A DNA stretch of 51,189 nucleotides from Acidobacteriaceae bacterium. GTDB lineage: Bacteria; Acidobacteriota; Terriglobia; Terriglobales; Acidobacteriaceae. This document shows, one piece after another, positions 2,268 to 10,590 of the stretch. The notes beneath the pieces are model-generated. The model was not told the DNA's origin, ran no database searches, and saw only the letters and a program-made list of their open reading frames with translations. Each line of letters opens with the position of its first letter. The stretch's first letter is position 1. The position numbers were made by a program, and so were the translations under genes. The stretch spans positions 83,113 through 134,301 of the forward strand of contig PLHQ01000012.1 in the NCBI GenBank assembly GCA_003138975.1. The letters run 5' to 3'.

Positions 2268-2555
2268 CTAGACCCAGTCCGAAATAGAGTTATTGGCGTC
2301 CTCTGAGTCACCCTGTTTTTCTTGTCTCTTCCGGCCAGCTTGGTTCTGTTGGCTTTGTTGCTTCCCACTTTCTTCATGTGCCCCCAGTTTCACAATGCAG
2401 TCTTCTCCGGAATCAGTCTCTCCGGCCAGTTCCGAGGCAAACTCCAGCAGCTTCCTTCTGGTGCACTCAACTTCTCGTTTGGCGGCGGCCTTCTCCGCCG
2501 CGTAGAGAGCATCCATTTGAACGTTCGCATTGATCTGGTTGGGGTGAATGTGCAT
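2268..2555 (-). CDS. Small charged conserved-type hypothetical protein
   Basis: A 95-aa protein of unknown function. A strong Shine-Dalgarno (AAAGGAGGA) sits about 6 bases before the ATG at 2555, one of the best in the window, which supports it as a real gene. The N-terminal half looks like an alpha-helical segment rich in Ala, Lys, Arg and Glu (about residues 14-45). The C-terminal 40 residues are Gln/Lys/Glu-rich and probably disordered. There is no signal peptide or membrane segment. I recall similar small proteins beginning with an I-x-PNQ-x-N pattern in acidobacterial genomes, but this is memory and not a search. It is transcribed divergently from the HpnI-like gene. Confidence 0.65.
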   Translation of the reverse strand: MHIHPNQINANVQMDALYAAEKAAAKREVECTRRKLLEFASELAGETDSGEDCIVKLGAHEESGKQQSQQNQAGRKRQEKQGDSEDANNSISDWV

Positions 2556-2892
2556 GGCTGTCCTCCTTTCGTATGCAGACTCCGCTCAGCCGCCGGGCCT
2601 GGCACTGGCAGCAGCCGCAAACTCGTCATTTCGCGCCACGGAACCTTGGAGTGTCATTGAGCAATCGGCGTGCCGAACAGAGTGCGTGCGAGCTGAGGCG
2701 AGCCACAAGTGCTACAAGATCCGTTTCCTTAGAGTCTTCCGAGTTTCATTAGGAAGAAGAACGTGCGCCTTACGCCTGTGCCGAACGGAAATGTATAGTG
2801 TGAGTTGCTGTTCTGATGGTCAGCAGGTGTATTCGCACCGGTTAATTGACGGTGCGGCCGACGACGGTTCTATTGAGGACAATGCAAATTTG
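2556..2892. other. Divergent intergenic region
   Basis: A 337-base gap between the small minus-strand gene and the plus-strand glycosyltransferase. The minus-strand gene's ribosome-binding site lies at its left edge, and a candidate plus-strand promoter at 2846-2874. A reading frame is open through the gap but lacks coding character. No RNA gene or riboswitch fold is evident. Confidence 0.5.
2846..2874 (+). promoter_or_regulatory. Candidate promoter for HpnI-like gene
   Basis: TTGACG (2846-2851), a 17-base spacer and TCTATT (2869-2874) resemble a sigma70 promoter. It would give a very short leader before the ATG at 2893. Visual match only. Confidence 0.3.
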
Positions 2893-4083
2893 ATGTGGCT
2901 GATTTTATATTCCGTTTTGGGTGTGGCCGTAATAGGTACTTTGTCTTCGGCTGTGTTTCTTGGCCTCGCGGCGGTGGGAGTCATTCGATTTCACGCGGAC
3001 GCGCGCAGACAGCTTCATTCCGTTCCCGACGATGCGCACCTTCCTCCAGTCTCCGTGCTCAAGCCAGTACACGGTTTGGAAGCGCAACTCAAGGAGAACA
3101 TCGAAAGCTTTTTCCGGCAAGATTATCCCGACTACGAAATTCTGTTTGCTGCGGACGAAGCGAACGATCCAGCGCTCGAAGTGGTACGGGAAGTTAGCAC
3201 CCGCTATCCGCACATCCGCACTCGTATTCTGGTGACTGGAACGCCGTGGCCCAATCCGGTGGTATACGCCTTTCACTGCATGGCAGAGGCGGCTGCGCAC
3301 GAAATTCTGGTCACGACGGATAGCGACGTAGAGGTTGACGCACGTTATCTGCGAGAAATCGTGCCGCCCTTGCTCGACCCGCAGGTGGGCATGGTAACGT
3401 GCGTTTATCGCGGCAAGAATGCTGCGGGATTCTTCTCCGGGCTCACGGCCGTCGGCATGTCGGTGGAAATGACGGCCGGAGTGCTGGTGGCGAATCTGCT
3501 CGAAGGAATGAAGTTCGGGTTAGGTCCAACCACCGTGGTGCGCAAGGATTCACTAGCAAGCATTGGCGGTTACACTGCGCTGCGGGATTATATTGCTTAC
3601 GATTTCGCCATTGGCAACCTGATCGCGAAGGCGGGCTACCGCGTCGTGCTGTCGAGGCACGTCATCGATCATGTGGTGAACCAGAAGTCGTTCCGCCACA
3701 TGTGGCAAAACCAGCTGCGCTGGGCGCAAACCACGCGCTATTCTCGTCCCAAAGGCCACTTCGGAAGTGGACTCATCTTCGCCATGCCCTACGGTCTGCT
3801 CGGATTCGTCGCGGCAGGTTTACTGGGACACTGGGGAATTGGAGCGATTCTGCTGGGGATAGCGGTGCTAAACCGCCTGGCCGAAGCATGGCTTATAGGC
3901 TGGACAGTGGTTCGAGATCGGAAAATACGGCGCGCGCCGTGGCTTTATCCGCTGCGCGACGTACTCGGTTTTGCTGTATGGTTCGCCAGTTATTTGAAGT
4001 TACGCTATGTGTGGCGCGACAGCCGCTTCGAATTGAAGGGAACGCGAATTGCGCTCCGTCAGTCATCTTCGGATCGAAGTTAG
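2893..4083 (+). CDS. hpnI: HpnI/ceramide-glucosyltransferase-like GT21 glycosyltransferase
   Basis: A 396-aa membrane glycosyltransferase. It starts with a transmembrane helix (residues 3-28). A GT-A domain follows with VSVLKPVHG, the DYPDYEILF strand, a TTDSDVEVD metal/sugar motif, GPTTVVRKDSL and QNQLRW, the QxxRW signature. At least two further membrane helices lie near the C-terminus (about 295-345). This order fits GT21 enzymes such as HpnI, which adds N-acetylglucosamine to bacteriohopanetetrol, and ceramide glucosyltransferase. The length matches HpnI (about 390). No other hopanoid gene is adjacent, and the heptose operon starts only 55 bases downstream, so an LPS or glycolipid role is possible. 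The ATG at 2893 was chosen because it begins the membrane helix. Confidence 0.75.
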   Translation: MWLILYSVLGVAVIGTLSSAVFLGLAAVGVIRFHADARRQLHSVPDDAHLPPVSVLKPVHGLEAQLKENIESFFRQDYPDYEILFAADEANDPALEVVREVSTRYPHIRTRILVTGTPWPNPVVYAFHCMAEAAAHEILVTTDSDVEVDARYLREIVPPLLDPQVGMVTCVYRGKNAAGFFSGLTAVGMSVEMTAGVLVANLLEGMKFGLGPTTVVRKDSLASIGGYTALRDYIAYDFAIGNLIAKAGYRVVLSRHVIDHVVNQKSFRHMWQNQLRWAQTTRYSRPKGHFGSGLIFAMPYGLLGFVAAGLLGHWGIGAILLGIAVLNRLAEAWLIGWTVVRDRKIRRAPWLYPLRDVLGFAVWFASYLKLRYVWRDSRFELKGTRIALRQSSSDRS

Positions 4084-4138: not shown

Positions 4139-5095
4139 TTGCGGGTTTTCGTTACGGGTGCGGCTGGGTTTATCGGCAGCAATATGGTCGATCGACTGCT
4201 TTCCACAGGTCACAGCGTCGTTGGATTCGATAACATGTCCACCGGACAGCAGCGCTTTCTGCAAAGCGCCGCTAACCATCCTCAGTTTATTTTTCATAAG
4301 GCAGATTTACTCGACCGCAAGAATCTGTCACAAGCCATGGAGGGAGCGGAACTCGTAGTCCATTTCGCCGCCAATGCCGACGTACGTTTTGGAACCGATC
4401 ATCCCCGCAAGGATCTGGATCAAAATACGATCGCAACCTGGAACGTGCTGGAGGCCATGCGTGAGCAAGGCTGCAAGCGGATCGTGTTTTCTTCAACTGG
4501 ATCGGTATATGGAGAGCCAAATGTTTTTCCGACGCCAGAGACGTGTCCTTTTCCCATTCAGACCTCCTTTTACGGCGCATCCAAACTGGCAGCGGAAGGT
4601 CTGATCCATGCCTATTGCGAAGGATTCGGCCTGCAAGGCTACATTTTTCGATTTGTGTCGATCCTGGGGGAGCGGTACACGCATGGACACGTATTCGATT
4701 TTTACCAGCAGCTTGCCGAGCATCCGGAACATCTTCATGTGTTGGGCAACGGCCATCAGAAAAAATCGTATTTGTATGTGCAGGATTGCATCGCCGCTAT
4801 TCTTACTGCCATCGACAGAGCGGATGGTAGGGTGAACATCTTCAATCTGGGGACGGACGAATATTGCGAGGTCAACGATTCTATCGCCTGGATTTGTGAG
4901 CATCTCGGTCTGCATCCGAAGTTGACGTACTCAGGCGGCGACCGCGGCTGGGTCGGGGATAGTCCATTTATCCTGCTGGACTGCTCGCGCATCCGCGCCC
5001 TGGGTTGGCGGCCGCGACTGGGTATACGAGAGGCGGTCTTGGCCACAATCAAATTCGTGAGTGCAGACGCCGCAGCGGTGAAGACGGAGTTGTGA
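4139..5095 (+). CDS. NAD-dependent sugar-nucleotide epimerase/dehydratase (extended SDR)
   Basis: A 318-aa extended short-chain dehydrogenase acting on a nucleotide sugar. The Rossmann motif GAAGFIG is at residues 7-13, a FAANADV segment near 76-82, catalytic SST at 118-120 and YGASK (Tyr145, Lys149). The start is TTG at 4139, preceded by a good GGGAGG. It is the first gene of the heptose operon; the next gene begins 51 bases on. UDP-glucose 4-epimerase-like proteins act on many substrates. From context I infer a nucleotide-activated heptose or its derivative, but the substrate is not readable from sequence. It is not an obvious HldD (ADP-heptose 6-epimerase). Confidence 0.8.
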   Translation: MRVFVTGAAGFIGSNMVDRLLSTGHSVVGFDNMSTGQQRFLQSAANHPQFIFHKADLLDRKNLSQAMEGAELVVHFAANADVRFGTDHPRKDLDQNTIATWNVLEAMREQGCKRIVFSSTGSVYGEPNVFPTPETCPFPIQTSFYGASKLAAEGLIHAYCEGFGLQGYIFRFVSILGERYTHGHVFDFYQQLAEHPEHLHVLGNGHQKKSYLYVQDCIAAILTAIDRADGRVNIFNLGTDEYCEVNDSIAWICEHLGLHPKLTYSGGDRGWVGDSPFILLDCSRIRALGWRPRLGIREAVLATIKFVSADAAAVKTEL

Positions 5096-5146
5096 GGTCC
5101 GGAACTTAGATACGCTATACTTACCGGCCTCTAGGGAACCCATCGT

Positions 5147-6130
5147 TTGATCATCACACGAAGTCCGTTGCGAATTTCATTGGGTGGAGGAGGCACCGAT
5201 CTTCCCTCGTACTACCGGAAGCACGGAGGCTTTGTACTCTCCGCTGCAATCAATCGATACGTCTACATCACGATCAACGAGGCGTTTCGCCCGCGGATCA
5301 TCTTGAAGTACTCAAAGCTGGAAGATGTGGAGCGTTGGGAGGAAATTCAGCATCCCATCATTCGGGAAGCGCTGCAGTTGACCGGGGTGACGGGACCGTA
5401 CCTCGAGATTGTCAGCCTCTCCGACATCCCCGCCGGTACAGGCTTGGGTTCGTCTGGGAGCTTTACGACCGCGCTGCTGCGGGCGCTGCACACCATGAAA
5501 CGGAATTTTGTGCCTCCGCAGGAATTGGCGGAGCAGGCCTGTCACATCGAAATCGATTTACTGAAGGAACCGGTCGGCAAGCAAGATCAGTACATCGCGG
5601 CATTTGGCGGGATCACTTGTTTCGAGTTTCTGCCAGACGACCGTGTGGTTGCGGAGCCTTTGAAGATTGCCTCTGAGACCTTGGCTAATCTCGAGGATAG
5701 TTTGCTGCTGTTCTTCACTGGAGCATCGCGCTCGGCGGCAGAAGTTTTGCGCGATCAAGATACGCGGACCCGCGAGAACGCCAGCGAGATGCTGGAGAAT
5801 CTGCACTTCACCAAGCAACTGGGGCACGAGAGCCGGGACGCGCTGCTGGCGGGCGATCTGCGCGAGTTTGCTGCACTCATGCACGTGCATTGGGAGCACA
5901 AGAAGAAGCGGTCTCCAGGGATGAGCAGCGGATTCATTGATGAAATGTATGATTTGGCGCGCGCCCACGGATCACTTGGCGGCAAACTGATCGGCGCCGG
6001 TGGTGGGGGATTTCTGCTGCTCTACACTGAGGACAAAACTCGTCTTCGATCTGCCATGCGAAGCGCCGGATTGCGCGAGGTGCGGTTGCAGTTTGACTTC
6101 AGCGGAACTTCGGTTCTAGCGCATTCCTAG
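5147..6130 (+). CDS. hddA: GHMP kinase, HddA-type D-glycero-alpha-D-manno-heptose-7-phosphate 1-kinase
   Basis: A 327-aa GHMP-family sugar kinase. It begins MIITRSPLRISLGGGGTD, the start characteristic of HddA and related sugar-1-kinases. The ATP-binding PAGTGLGSSGS loop is at residues 95-105, followed by the KEPVGKQDQY segment and the C-terminal GKLIGAGGGGF motif near 279-289. In the known GDP-heptose pathway HddA phosphorylates C1 of heptose 7-phosphate in the alpha configuration. The start is TTG at 5147, with no better start available. It is followed after 5 bases by the nucleotidyltransferase gene and then by the GmhA-GmhB fusion, the partners expected for this pathway. An L-fucose-kinase-like role is possible but fits the neighbours less well. 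Confidence 0.85.
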   Translation: MIITRSPLRISLGGGGTDLPSYYRKHGGFVLSAAINRYVYITINEAFRPRIILKYSKLEDVERWEEIQHPIIREALQLTGVTGPYLEIVSLSDIPAGTGLGSSGSFTTALLRALHTMKRNFVPPQELAEQACHIEIDLLKEPVGKQDQYIAAFGGITCFEFLPDDRVVAEPLKIASETLANLEDSLLLFFTGASRSAAEVLRDQDTRTRENASEMLENLHFTKQLGHESRDALLAGDLREFAALMHVHWEHKKKRSPGMSSGFIDEMYDLARAHGSLGGKLIGAGGGGFLLLYTEDKTRLRSAMRSAGLREVRLQFDFSGTSVLAHS

Positions 6131-6135
6131 AAACC

Positions 6136-6837
6136 ATGCTACCTATGGCCATACTTGCCGGCGGCTTGGCAACGCGCCTGGGAGCGCTGACGGCAAAAGT
6201 TCCGAAGTCACTGGTCCAAATAGGCGGCGAACCGTTTGTGGCGCACCAATTGCGGCTCCTGCAAACCAGCGGCATCCAACAAGTAATCCTGTGCGTCGGT
6301 CATCTGGGTGAGATGATTGAGGACGCCGTCGGCGATGGCAGCGCTTTCGGAGTGAAGGTCGAGTATTCCTACGATGGGAAAACGCTGTTGGGCACGGCTG
6401 GAGCAATCAGAAGCGCTCTACCGAAGCTGGGAGAACGTTTCTTCGCGATGTATGGCGATTCGTATCTGGCCTGCGACTATGCCGCGATTGAGAAGGAATT
6501 CTTGCAAAGCGGGAAGCTGGGCCTGATGACGATATTCCGTAACGACGGGCAGTGGGATGCCAGCAATGTGGAATTTGAAGCGGGGCGCATACAGGCTTAC
6601 AACAAGAAGAGTCGCACTTCCCCTATGCGTTATATCGATTATGGGTTGGGAGTTTTTCGGGCGGAAGCTTTTGTCAGAACGGGGACGATGGACCTGGCCG
6701 ACGTTTATACAGAGCTTCTCCAGAGCGGGGAGTTGGCCGCCGTGGAAGTGCATGAGCGCTTTTATGAAATAGGTTCGCCAGCAGGATTGAAACAGATGAC
6801 GAGTTTCTTGAGCCGACGAGGAGCCCTGCGGAAATGA
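6136..6837 (+). CDS. hddC: Sugar-1-phosphate nucleotidyltransferase, HddC-type
   Basis: A 233-aa NTP-transferase with the signature LAGGLATRL (residues 7-15), PKSL and a MYGDSY metal-binding motif. It has the short length of HddC/WcbM-type enzymes that make GDP-D-glycero-alpha-D-manno-heptose. Placed directly after the HddA-type kinase, it would activate heptose 1-phosphate with a nucleotide. GTP is inferred from the family and the alpha-kinase neighbour; ATP or CTP cannot be excluded by eye. Its stop codon overlaps the next start by four bases (ATGA), so translation is probably coupled. Confidence 0.82.
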   Translation: MLPMAILAGGLATRLGALTAKVPKSLVQIGGEPFVAHQLRLLQTSGIQQVILCVGHLGEMIEDAVGDGSAFGVKVEYSYDGKTLLGTAGAIRSALPKLGERFFAMYGDSYLACDYAAIEKEFLQSGKLGLMTIFRNDGQWDASNVEFEAGRIQAYNKKSRTSPMRYIDYGLGVFRAEAFVRTGTMDLADVYTELLQSGELAAVEVHERFYEIGSPAGLKQMTSFLSRRGALRK

Positions 6838-8012
6838 GCAGCCGCAGCTTTCATAGGGCAAGCTTTGCCGAGGATTTTCTCGCCGAGGCAAGCGAGATCA
6901 TAGCGAAGCTGGATGTGGCGAGTATTGAAAAAGCTGCCGGACTGCTCGCTGGCACTCGCGCCGCGGGCGGCCGCCTGTTTATTCTCGGAGTGGGCGGAAG
7001 CGCGGCCAATGCTTCGCATGCCGTCAATGACTTTCGCAAGATTGCGGGCATCGAGGCTTACGCGCCCACGGACAACGTATCGGAGCTGACTGCACGCACG
7101 AACGATGAAGGCTGGAGTTCGATCTTCGATAGCTGGCTGCGCACGAGCCGACTGCGCGCCGACGATTTGCTGCTGATTTTCTCGGTTGGTGGTGGAAACG
7201 TTGAGCAAAACATAAGCCCGAACCTGGTTGCCGCTCTGAAGTATGCGAAGTCGGTCGGCGCAAGAATCATCGGCATCGTTGGCCGCGACGGCGGTTATAC
7301 CGCAACCGTTGCCGATGCTTGCGTGCTGATTCCCACGGTGAATCCTGCGCACACTACTCCGCATACTGAAGCTTTCCAGGCGGTTGTCTGGCATCTGCTG
7401 GTTTCGCATCCGGCGATAAAGATTCAGGCGACGAAATGGGAATCGATGGGGCCGGGCGGCAAACGGCGCGCCGTCTTCCTTGACCGCGACGGCGTTATCA
7501 ACCGGGCTTTTGTTCGAGAAGGCAAGCCGTTTCCGCCGCCCACGCCACAAGAATTGGAAATACTTCCCGATGTTCCAAAAGCGTTGCAGGACTTGAAGTC
7601 ACACGGCTATGAATTGCTGGTTGTGACCAACCAGCCCGATGTCGGGCGAGGAAAGCAGTCACGCCAGGCGCTTGACGCGATGCATCAGGCTCTATCCGCA
7701 CGTCTTCCGCTCGACGATATCCTCGTGTGTTGCCACACCGATCAGGACAAGTGTGACTGCCGCAAACCCTTGCCGGGAATGCTTCTCGACGCGGCGCGGA
7801 AGCATAACATCGATCTACCGGCCAGCTTTATGGTTGGCGACCGATGGCGCGACATCGAGGCCGGTTATAATGCAGGATGTAGGACCATTCTTATCGATTA
7901 CGGCTATTCGGAGAGACCTCCAGACCGTGTTCCCGACTTGCGCGTAGGGTCTCTCCGCGAAGCGGCTGACTGGATCATCCGTTCCACGCCAAAAGGAGCG
8001 CATCCCGCATGA
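6834..8012 (+). CDS. gmhA-gmhB: Fused sedoheptulose-7-P isomerase (GmhA) and heptose-bisphosphate phosphatase (GmhB)
   Basis: A 392-aa two-domain enzyme. Residues 1-205 are a SIS domain like GmhA, with GVGGSAANASHAV at 52-64 and a second phosphosugar loop FSVGGGN at 116-122. GmhA converts sedoheptulose 7-phosphate to heptose 7-phosphate. Residues 211-390 are a HAD phosphatase like GmhB: FLDRDGVIN (nucleophile Asp217, acid Asp219), VVTNQ, and zinc ligands in the pattern Cys299-x-His301 and Cys307-x-Cys309, then KPLPG and VGDRWRDIEAG. GmhB removes the C7 phosphate from heptose 1,7-bisphosphate. The join is continuous in frame across MGPGGKRR with no frameshift. The gene overlaps both neighbours by four bases. 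In most bacteria the two enzymes are separate. Confidence 0.87.
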   Translation: MSSRSFHRASFAEDFLAEASEIIAKLDVASIEKAAGLLAGTRAAGGRLFILGVGGSAANASHAVNDFRKIAGIEAYAPTDNVSELTARTNDEGWSSIFDSWLRTSRLRADDLLLIFSVGGGNVEQNISPNLVAALKYAKSVGARIIGIVGRDGGYTATVADACVLIPTVNPAHTTPHTEAFQAVVWHLLVSHPAIKIQATKWESMGPGGKRRAVFLDRDGVINRAFVREGKPFPPPTPQELEILPDVPKALQDLKSHGYELLVVTNQPDVGRGKQSRQALDAMHQALSARLPLDDILVCCHTDQDKCDCRKPLPGMLLDAARKHNIDLPASFMVGDRWRDIEAGYNAGCRTILIDYGYSERPPDRVPDLRVGSLREAADWIIRSTPKGAHPA

Positions 8013-8761
8013 AGGCTGTGTCCGACTTGCGCATACAAATCTTCGCGGACGGGGCTGACAAGGCCAGCATCCTCGAGCTATACCGCCAGCCTTATATCAA
8101 AGGTTTCACAACCAATCCCACCTTGATGCGAGCCACAGGAGTTACGGATTATCAGCAGTTTGCGCTGGATCTGCTGGCAACCATTCAAGACCGTCCGATC
8201 TCGTTTGAAGTGTTTGCCGATGAAGAACCGGAGATGGAGGAGCAGGCCCGGCACATTGCGGCTTGGAGTGAGAATGTCTTCGTCAAGATCCCTGTGATGA
8301 ACACAAACGGAGCGTCTACGTACGATCTAGTCAGGCGGCTTTCCGGCGAAGGAATTCAATTGAACGTGACCGCGCTGCTCACGCTGGAGCAGGTGCGGGA
8401 TGTTTGCGCGGCACTCCAGGGCAACGCGCCCGCCTACGTTTCCGTATTTGCCGGCCGTATCGCCGACACCGGCCGCGATCCTGTGCCCCTAATGCGCGAA
8501 GCGGTGGCCATTGTCAACGACGCGAACGCTCAACTCATGTGGGCCAGTCCGCGGGAACTGCTCAACGTTTTTCAGGCAGACGAGATTGGGTGCCACGTCA
8601 TTACGGCGACGACTGACATTCTGAAGAAACTTCCTCTCGTGGGTAAAGACCTGCATGGGTTCTCGCAGGAAACGGTGCAAATGTTCCGGAGGGATGCGGT
8701 GATGTCAGGCTACTCTCTGCCAACTGCGAAGCAGGGAGTTTCTGTAGTCTCCCGCCGCTAG
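8009..8761 (+). CDS. tal: Transaldolase / fructose-6-phosphate-aldolase family protein
   Basis: A 250-aa class I aldolase of the small transaldolase (TalC/FSA-like) family. It has FADGADKASI near the N-terminus, GFTTNPTL at 32-39, and the Schiff-base lysine in VFVKIP (Lys93). Later elements are LNVTALLTLEQ, YVSVFAGRIADTG and the ATTDILKKL stretch. It overlaps the GmhA-GmhB fusion by ATGA and closes the operon. Transaldolases transfer a dihydroxyacetone unit and can form sedoheptulose 7-phosphate from fructose 6-phosphate and erythrose 4-phosphate. Context therefore suggests it feeds the heptose pathway. An aldolase acting on another sugar phosphate is the alternative. Its stop shares a CTAG palindrome with the convergent gene. 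Confidence 0.87.
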   Translation: MKAVSDLRIQIFADGADKASILELYRQPYIKGFTTNPTLMRATGVTDYQQFALDLLATIQDRPISFEVFADEEPEMEEQARHIAAWSENVFVKIPVMNTNGASTYDLVRRLSGEGIQLNVTALLTLEQVRDVCAALQGNAPAYVSVFAGRIADTGRDPVPLMREAVAIVNDANAQLMWASPRELLNVFQADEIGCHVITATTDILKKLPLVGKDLHGFSQETVQMFRRDAVMSGYSLPTAKQGVSVVSRR

Positions 8762-10590
8762 GGATGGTTAGTAAAGATCACTTTGCCTGACATTTCGCTG
8801 GCTATGTGCAGCCGTCCCGGCAGCAGCGCTTCCACTTTCGCGCGTTCGTGCTGCGGTACAAAAAGAAAAACTCGCTCGTTCGAATTCCACGCCCGCAGCA
8901 GTCCCTGATCGTCCAGAAAAATACGCGGAGCATCGGGATATGTGGATCCCCACCACATGGAAGTCGTGTTTCCATTGACTAGTTCAAGCGGCCGCCTCAA
9001 GTAGAACAATAGCGACGAGCCAAACGACTGATCGCCGTAAATCATCACGCGGTCGGTGGGCTTTAGTTCAGGAGCGATTTCCCGGGCCATGCTTCGCGAT
9101 CCAAGGAAAGGATCGAAGCGTACCAGAGCGATGTGTGCTGCGATCAGGAACACTGCCATGGTGATGGCAGTTGTCCACGTTGCGGCGAGTTGTGCGCCGC
9201 GCCGCCGCAGCCAGAATGCAAAGGCCGGCCCTATCAGCAGGACAATGGCAGCCAGAATTGCCGGGAGGCGCAGCGCAGCGAAAGATTCCCCCGTCAGATC
9301 GAGCATATGTCCCATCGAAAGCGTTTCGGCTTGAAGGTTCGGTTTAGCGAGCACAGTGCCAATGTCGGGCACGAATGGAATGTGGCGTGAGTTCCACAGC
9401 CCTGCTGCCAGCACGGCCGAAATAGCTATGCAGATCAGCGCAAGTACCCCCGAGGTCCACAGAAGCCAGCGCCGCGAACCCGACTCTTCGTCATTTGCGA
9501 GCCTCGCGGCAATCAGCAACAGGATCGGGAAGTAGGCCGGAAACGTGTAGTACTCCTGATTGGTGGAGAACGAGAAAAAGACAAGCGTCACTCCGGCCCA
9601 GGCCAGGCAGAGTAATTCGGTTCTGGAGCGGAAGTTCAGCGGTGGCCGGGGTATCTTGGCTGCACCCAGCTTGCGGCGTGCCATCCACTCTGCAATCGGA
9701 CGCCGCAGGGCCACTGGCAGGTAAAAACTCCAGGGGAACAGCCACACAAGGTGTAGGGTCCAATAGAGGGAATTGGTCTGTTTGTTGTAGTCCTTTGGAA
9801 TGCGCTTGCCCAGGAAGCGCATAAAGTGTTCGTTCACGAAGTAGAACCAGAAGAAGTGTGGATTACGGATGCCCGCGAGCAAGTGCCAGGGGGCGGCAAT
9901 CGCCAGGAAGAGCAGCGTGCCGGTGAAGAGACGGAACTCGTGCCAGCGCCTCCACTCGCCGCTGACTGCAACGTATAGCAGCAAGGCCAATCCGACGACG
10001 ACGATGGCGAGCAGTCCCTTGGTGAGTACCGCCAGCGCCATGCAGGCGTAGCCGCCATACCAGCGCCAGGCATAGGTGTCTTCCAGGCCCGTGGCGAAAA
10101 AGTAGAATGACGCGGCAATGAAAAAACTGAGAATGGCTTCCGGGATCAGGATTCGCGTGAAGAGATAGCACCCCGCCGCTGTTGCAACGAACAGTCCCGC
10201 GTAAACCGCGGCGCGATCGCCGAAAGCACGACGTCCCCAGCGCAAGGCCAGTACCACAAGAAACAACATAGACAGCGCAACCGGCAAGTGCGCGGCGAAT
10301 TCATTCGTGCCAAAGAAGAAGTAGCACAAAGAAACTGCCCAGTACATCAGCGGAGCTTTTTCCAGGTAGCGGTTGCCATTTATTTTCAGCGTCACGAAGT
10401 TGTGCGTGACGTGCATTTCGCGCGCGGCCTCCGCGTGAGTTGAGTCCGCATCGTCCTGCATCCCGGGCGAAAAGAGTGATCCGACATACACCACGGCGAA
10501 TAGAAGCAGGACACCTACGATCTGTGTATTCCTGATCGCTGTGGACCGTGCTGAAGGTGCGGAGCTTGAGGCCGGGCTTTTCGTTGTCAA
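8758..10590 (-). CDS. ArnT/PMT-like polytopic glycosyltransferase
   Basis: A 610-aa integral membrane GT-C enzyme of the ArnT/PMT_2 type. These transfer a sugar from a polyprenyl-phosphate donor to a periplasmic acceptor such as lipid A or protein. The first membrane helix (about residues 24-42) leads into a periplasmic loop with the acidic pair in MQDDADS and HAEAAREM, followed by YLEKAPLMYW, the typical first-loop signature. About a dozen hydrophobic segments follow, then a soluble C-terminal domain (about 500-610). The start is TTG at 10590 with a GAGGA upstream. Convergent to the heptose operon, it may decorate the envelope, but its donor and acceptor are unknown. Confidence 0.82.
   Translation of the reverse strand: MTTKSPASSSAPSARSTAIRNTQIVGVLLLFAVVYVGSLFSPGMQDDADSTHAEAAREMHVTHNFVTLKINGNRYLEKAPLMYWAVSLCYFFFGTNEFAAHLPVALSMLFLVVLALRWGRRAFGDRAAVYAGLFVATAAGCYLFTRILIPEAILSFFIAASFYFFATGLEDTYAWRWYGGYACMALAVLTKGLLAIVVVGLALLLYVAVSGEWRRWHEFRLFTGTLLFLAIAAPWHLLAGIRNPHFFWFYFVNEHFMRFLGKRIPKDYNKQTNSLYWTLHLVWLFPWSFYLPVALRRPIAEWMARRKLGAAKIPRPPLNFRSRTELLCLAWAGVTLVFFSFSTNQEYYTFPAYFPILLLIAARLANDEESGSRRWLLWTSGVLALICIAISAVLAAGLWNSRHIPFVPDIGTVLAKPNLQAETLSMGHMLDLTGESFAALRLPAILAAIVLLIGPAFAFWLRRRGAQLAATWTTAITMAVFLIAAHIALVRFDPFLGSRSMAREIAPELKPTDRVMIYGDQSFGSSLLFYLRRPLELVNGNTTSMWWGSTYPDAPRIFLDDQGLLRAWNSNERVFLFVPQHERAKVEALLPGRLHIASEMSGKVIFTNHP

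Follow-up and report, generated by a model that had tools for sequence, protein, structure and literature searches.

The window analysed here is a stretch of 51,189 nucleotides from an Acidobacteriaceae bacterium (contig PLHQ01000012.1, positions 83,113 to 134,301), which carries on its plus strand, at 4139-8761, an operon of five packed open reading frames (ORFs) encoding six enzyme domains: an extended SDR, a GHMP sugar kinase, a nucleotidyltransferase, a SIS isomerase, a HAD phosphatase and a transaldolase. Six activities are obtained from five ORFs because the SIS isomerase and the HAD phosphatase are fused in one ORF of 392 amino acids. Enzyme families and linkage give good support for a pathway that leads to an activated higher-carbon sugar. 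The specific reading we favour, which is not proven and which we hold with somewhat more belief than doubt, is that the operon makes a nucleotide-activated octose via a lincosamide-type route. An octose would be preferred over a heptose because the transaldolase is dedicated and co-inherited, and because the gene set matches the lincosamide pathway.

What the sequences show directly is which genes the operon contains, how they are linked, with which others they co-occur and which motifs they conserve. The telling feature is the transaldolase, which tracks the kinase. Among the 249 genomes of the class surveyed, 22 encode a kinase of at least 56% identity. The comparison covered 21 of these (G179, which also has a transaldolase, was left out) and 25 hand-picked others, i.e. 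46 of the 249 genomes. A transaldolase of the cassette class (at least 50% identity) was present in 20 of the 21 kinase genomes and in none of the 25 others. The Fisher value calculated takes no account of common descent. The source genome (G000) possesses a second, longer transaldolase on contig C107, meaning that the operon enzyme is not its only transaldolase; it is, however, the sole match of its class. The operon could alternatively serve synthesis of a heptose (GDP-heptose; GDP, guanosine diphosphate), an explanation that we consider possible but doubtful. A dedicated transaldolase is not explained by the heptose route, since that route needs four enzymes from sedoheptulose 7-phosphate; the published set of Campylobacter, as described in the consulted part of PMC10680097, has just this size and starting compound. 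A literature search for a transaldolase occurring together with hddA/hddC found no mention of one among the papers listed.

The consulted parts of two papers (PMC12945683; PMC4351081) assign the genes for the eight-carbon sugar of lincomycin as follows: R, transaldolase; N, isomerase; P, kinase; K, phosphatase; O, nucleotidyltransferase (guanylyltransferase); and M, epimerase; with the later genes L (dehydrogenase), Z (oxidoreductase) and S (aminotransferase). LmbR forms octulose phosphate from fructose 6-phosphate or sedoheptulose 7-phosphate plus ribose 5-phosphate, as reported in the portion consulted of a citing paper (PMC5854111). Along these lines, we infer the following substrates and products for the operon, and likewise the identity of the nucleotide, C4 as the site of epimerisation and a lipid as acceptor. 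The transaldolase would transfer three carbons from fructose 6-phosphate or sedoheptulose 7-phosphate onto ribose 5-phosphate to give octulose 8-phosphate, which the SIS domain would convert to octose 8-phosphate. The GHMP kinase would place a phosphate onto C1 of octose 8-phosphate, the fused HAD domain would take off the 8-phosphate, and the nucleotidyltransferase would add the nucleotide, GDP by analogy with LmbO. LmbM acts at C4. Epimerisation by the SDR, probably at C4, would yield a nucleoside diphosphate (NDP)-activated galacto-type octose, and in the compact form of the cassette an HpnI-like membrane glycosyltransferase may hand the octose to a lipid.

Related loci were collected with the kinase as query, and the best 80 of 108 loci were kept, in which the kinase is 59-96% identical. 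Their source records are titled Acidobacteria, Planctomycetes, Verrucomicrobia, Alpha-, Gamma- and Deltaproteobacteria, Chloroflexi, Nitrospirae, Cyanobacteria and others. Genes were counted anywhere in the fetched stretch, and the identity thresholds lose distant forms, e.g. planctomycete transaldolases (25-27%). For 60 loci, the downstream sequence extends over 3.5 kb or more; counted in this way, they contain the nucleotidyltransferase in 60 cases, SIS in 52, HAD in 52, the transaldolase in 46 and all of them in 44. Conservation of the operon is far beyond chance, because the kinase retains this identity across phyla and the five-gene set recurs in 44 of these 60 loci. SIS and HAD form a single ORF in 13 of the 80 loci. 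Flanking sequence on either side is available for 53 loci: the SDR is present in 40 of them, a Gfo/Idh/MocA oxidoreductase in 38, a short-chain dehydrogenase in 34 and, at a strict threshold, an NDP-sugar dehydrogenase in 19, while the complete set of nine genes was found in 12. All nine genes occur in identical order on two Rhizobium megaplasmids (L096 and L105), and a Lawsonia plasmid carries eight of the nine, the SDR being missing; a literature search on the Lawsonia plasmid transaldolase found nothing. Neighbours at some loci include glycosyltransferases, methyltransferases and an ABC-transporter ATPase, which fits surface glycans. A second apparent SDR of the relatives was rejected as a true SDR: the single-linkage cluster had mixed families, and the one member tested matched Gfo/Idh/MocA in Pfam.

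The loci also bear on the idea that the operon is degenerate and its members no longer form one pathway. Compact forms without L, Z and the short-chain dehydrogenase, which make up 14 of the 53 well-flanked loci, could be read in this sense. All operon frames of the window are open from start to stop, however, and many residues, typical family motifs included, are at least 95% conserved (52-80 sequences per protein). Together with the link between transaldolase and kinase in 20 of 21 genomes, this makes decay of the pathway most improbable.

Some plasmid loci show relatives of single components in other settings. On a plasmid of Azospirillum sp. B510 (L101), a 39%-identical kinase has a split transketolase pair, an epimerase gene and a NUDIX gene as neighbours; a similar logic with transketolase replacing transaldolase may be at work here. 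ORFs matching both HAD and nucleotidyltransferase adjoin kinases of about 43% identity on Rhizobium and Lawsonia plasmids (L098:6704-9001 and L104:7678-8970); this looks like another kind of fusion, belonging to a sister pathway. On a plasmid of Streptomyces sp. 3211 (L099:17986-18696), the neighbours of a 52%-identical transaldolase are a D-arabinono-1,4-lactone oxidase together with a sugar phosphatase, with no kinase annotated in the stretch, and on the Streptomyces plasmids H28 and H117 one of the two enzymes, transaldolase or kinase, is likewise found in a different gene context.

To characterize the isomerase, the SIS domains of the window and of 64 of the 66 SIS-bearing loci (those passing a coverage filter) were aligned with E. 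coli GmhA and 20 selected proteins of the class. An insertion of 6 residues follows the STSGN loop in 65/65 cassette domains and in 0/21 of the others, and the stretch near residues 66-76 is shortened in the cassette domains. These carry D65 and E172 in 65/65 cases and Q175 in 62/65, as compared to the GmhA pattern E65/Q172/H175. By this alignment, the cassette SIS is a separate, discrete class. It is encoded (46-59 bits to gmhA) in all 21 kinase genomes, in 18 of them on the kinase contig, whereas none of the 25 others has a protein in that score range. Nine of the 21 possess in addition a separate protein with the GmhA pattern (184-202 bits), and 7 carry in its place a third SIS class (D/E/H, 120-128 bits). 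As for the remainder, G048 has a D/Q/Q protein (121 bits), three genomes have unaligned matches of 106-119 bits and the source genome has none. The third class, distinct from both GmhA and the cassette SIS, was also seen at L116-L119 and L121-L124 (108-128 bits to gmhA; D65, E172, H175). A Q175E protein of B. pseudomallei GmhA, in which the position matching E172 is altered, is called inactive in the consulted part of PMC5705639. The idea that E172 alone excludes GmhA activity was nevertheless rejected: this residue is also present in the third class, to which 8 of the 20 aligned proteins belong, so E172 is a class mark and no proof of substrate.

From the insertion in the SIS loop and the motifs shared across the class one would expect a specialised substrate, though they do not name it, and the oxidoreductases of the full cassettes imply further modification. 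Both would also suit a variant in which the same enzyme logic is applied to a different ketose phosphate, be it a branched sugar or some other stereoisomer with seven, eight or nine carbons, leading to a different NDP-sugar. Since lincosamides were the only precedent combining all six activities in our literature search, we regard such a product as quite unlikely.

Evidence bearing on a heptose product was obtained by scoring the proteins with NCBIfam models against the curated equivalog cut-offs. Heptose enzymes are the nearest named families for the kinase and the SIS domain, with HddA scoring best among the named models matched by the kinase; for the HAD domain, heptose bisphosphate phosphatases are among the high-ranking families. 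However, none of the heptose equivalogs was reached: the kinase scored 165.8 bits with HddA (NF049969, cut-off 600), the SIS domain 52.6 bits with GmhA (TIGR00441, cut-off 209), the nucleotidyltransferase 68.9 bits with HddC (NF049965, cut-off 300) and the HAD domain 66.5 of 250 bits (NF050049) and 127.2 of 178 bits (PRK08942) with the GmhB models. The nucleotidyltransferase is closer to MurU (110.8 bits) than to HddC, both below cut-off, so use of GTP is putative. Only the transaldolase passed an equivalog cut-off (TIGR02134). A missed cut-off is not decisive by itself, as the genome's own RfaE1 (285/345) and RfaE2 (169/181.5) miss theirs; 11 proteins of the class with the GmhA pattern (182-202 bits) also stay below TIGR00441. 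Taken together with the separate SIS class and a transaldolase that the heptose route leaves unexplained, the equivalog scores do not support the GDP-heptose branch proposed in the first-pass annotation. Its general chemistry, i.e. conversion of a ketose phosphate to an aldose phosphate followed by 1-kinase, phosphatase, nucleotidyltransferase and epimerase, fits the families found, and its idea that the added epimerase could mean a new sugar was a fair guess.

The source genome (an assembly of 223 contigs, 98.6% complete, 3.1% contamination) harbors on contig C152 (L005:7356-12366) a locus for adenosine diphosphate (ADP)-heptose and lipopolysaccharide core, which comprises GT9 heptosyltransferase-like, split RfaE2-like and RfaE1-like, LpxK and KdtA-like genes. 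Absence of an HldE-type enzyme, as asserted at first, therefore holds for the operon and not for the genome, in which the RfaE1-like, RfaE2-like and GT9 genes lie together on this contig. A SIS_2 search of the genome found no gmhA-type SIS besides that of the window; its two further matches exceed the cut-offs of other families, one that of the PRK02947-type sugar isomerase domain proteins (253 bits against 135) and the other that of the N-acetylmuramic acid 6-phosphate etherases (332 against 302). The fused HAD domain is the only match of the genome above the TIGR01656 cut-off. Genome G242 of the same genus is devoid of the cassette kinase, SIS and transaldolase and of any gmhA-type SIS above 24 bits. 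It keeps GT9-RfaE2-RfaE1-LpxK, which is hence independent of the cassette SIS there. Accordingly, the proposal that the SIS-HAD fusion simply replaces GmhA/GmhB for the lipopolysaccharide core was rejected, while a stand-in role restricted to the source genome is possible.

Several observations weigh against the octose reading. G145 is an exception to the co-occurrence, having the kinase set without a cassette-class transaldolase, and 6 of the 60 well-flanked loci carry kinase and nucleotidyltransferase, but no SIS, HAD or transaldolase in the fetched stretch. TIGR02134 is named for a staphylococcal transaldolase and annotated as a general transaldolase; thus, the operon enzyme may do no more than supply sedoheptulose 7-phosphate. 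Among the four solved kinases closest to that of the window, two bear the name heptose kinase and two that of a putative sugar kinase, which indicates family, not substrate. The SIS-HAD fusion might serve the heptose route, and may in such a case also feed the ADP-heptose branch, because the source genome has RfaE1/RfaE2 and GT9, while its sole gmhA-type SIS and its sole GmhB-type HAD above the cut-off are those of the fusion; the situation in G242 and the separate GmhA-type protein in 9 of 21 cassette genomes speak against a heptose role. Finally, equivalents of LmbL and LmbZ are absent from the operon ORFs, an LmbS-type aminotransferase is absent from the operon ORFs and the scanned neighbours, and the likeness to the Lmb/Ccb proteins is one of described activities, not of sequence comparison; a search of solved structures found none named LmbR.

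A candidate user of the sugar nucleotide is an HpnI-like membrane glycosyltransferase (GT21), whose gene lies upstream of the SDR and is separated from it by 55 bases. Orthologues close to it (at least 59%) are present in 5/21 cassette genomes and in 0/25 others. In G122 and G161 the glycosyltransferase gene directly follows the transaldolase, in G128 it is 3 kb off beside an SDR of only 40% identity, and in G048 it is located on a separate contig, adjoining an 87%-identical SDR. This suggests, from few genomes, that glycosyltransferase and SDR belong together in a module that works alongside the core. Speaking against a firm link, the gene lies in the fetched stretch at just 7 of 80 loci and at 6 of the 14 well-flanked compact loci. 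The window protein was rejected as the HpnI of the genome: a better candidate is encoded on contig C188 (372.7 bits with TIGR03472), so that the window protein is a paralogue with its own distribution. In G128 (L140:3534-5936), two HpnI-like glycosyltransferases (343.2 and 306.7 bits) are arranged in tandem beside an SDR.

The features of the locus are compiled in Table 1. The ORF map bears out the extent and tight packing of the operon as first described, and the Pfam matches bear out the six enzyme families. The same description counted five genes plus an SDR; there are indeed five ORFs, but the SDR is one of them and SIS and HAD share another. The SDR gene starts with TTG, preceded by GGGAGG, and its nearest solved structure is 3ehe (296.8 bits), named UDP-glucose 4-epimerase; that of the kinase is 3k85 (182 bits), named heptose kinase. 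The last two ORF junctions, nucleotidyltransferase/SIS-HAD and SIS-HAD/transaldolase, are 4-base ATGA overlaps, and the G+C content of the operon (0.561) matches that of the window (0.572). For the glycosyltransferase, the listed ORF is 2548-4083, but alignments of homologues begin at about residue 114, which gives the probable start used in Table 1. On the minus strand, a PMT_2/ArnT-like glycosyltransferase gene (8758-10590) converges with the transaldolase gene in a 4-base overlap; its neighbour cluster occurs in 4 of the 80 loci.

Table 1. Positions and assigned roles of the operon genes and of the adjoining glycosyltransferase gene in the window
Feature	Position	Strand	Supporting match
HpnI-like membrane glycosyltransferase (GT21), candidate sugar-nucleotide user	2893..4083	+	TIGR03472 309.4 bits (cut-off 310)
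Extended SDR, 4-epimerase-like (LmbM-like role)	4139..5095	+	Pfam Epimerase 2.5e-50
GHMP sugar 1-kinase (HddA/LmbP-like role)	5147..6130	+	Pfam GHMP N 9e-13, C 2e-10
Sugar-1-phosphate nucleotidyltransferase (LmbO-like role)	6136..6837	+	Pfam NTP_transferase 3e-17
Fused SIS aldose-ketose isomerase (N-terminal ~198 aa) and GmhB-type HAD phosphatase (C-terminal ~187 aa)	6834..8012	+	Pfam SIS_2 2e-12, Hydrolase_like 4.5e-14
Dedicated small transaldolase (LmbR-like role)	8009..8761	+	Pfam TAL_FSA 3e-41; TIGR02134 329.3 bits (cut-off 281.95)

If the operon makes an activated octose, such sugars would not be limited to lincosamide producers, but would be common and unrecognised in acidobacteria, planctomycetes, verrucomicrobia, proteobacteria and others, and octose genes would currently be read as heptose genes. 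Annotation would then gain a simple rule, namely an HddA-like kinase accompanied by a transaldolase of the TIGR02134 class and a SIS of the class with the insertion, the enzymes could be employed to prepare rare higher-carbon sugar nucleotides, and the origin of the lincomycin sugar would become testable. A bolder proposal, which we think rather unlikely, is that the octose module is old, widespread and mobile in Gram-negative surface chemistry, that the compact acidobacterial form leads to an octose lipid (hopanoid or ceramide) through the HpnI-like glycosyltransferase, and that the lincosamide sugar is a later use. We know of no class of glycolipids in which a hopanoid or ceramide carries an octose.

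Among known systems, HpnI is approached by the window glycosyltransferase to just below the TIGR03472 cut-off, the difference being the clear HpnI elsewhere in the genome. The ADP-heptose pathway (GmhA, HldE or RfaE1/RfaE2, GmhB, HldD) shares SIS and HAD activities with the operon, which, however, contains neither HldE-type nor RfaE1/RfaE2 enzymes; RfaE1, RfaE2 and GT9 are encoded elsewhere in the source genome and also in the cassette-less G242. Likeness to the GDP-heptose pathway extends to the kinase, isomerase and phosphatase families, but the scores are far below the equivalogs, the SIS domain is of a class of its own, the nucleotidyltransferase is nearer to MurU and a dedicated transaldolase is added. 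Our literature search, which covered mainly titles and the openings of abstracts and few subscription papers, found no such pathway described outside lincosamide producers, which is weak evidence of absence. The thiooctose pathway of lincosamides in Streptomyces is matched in the window, by described activities, in all six of LmbR, LmbN, LmbP, LmbK, LmbO and LmbM. L- and Z-like genes (NDP-sugar dehydrogenase and Gfo/Idh/MocA oxidoreductase) are present in fuller relatives. The two systems differ in that the isomerase is fused to a phosphatase here and to a carrier domain in LmbN, according to the consulted part of PMC12945683, and in that the cassette occurs in many Gram-negative groups, near glycosyltransferases at several of the loci examined.

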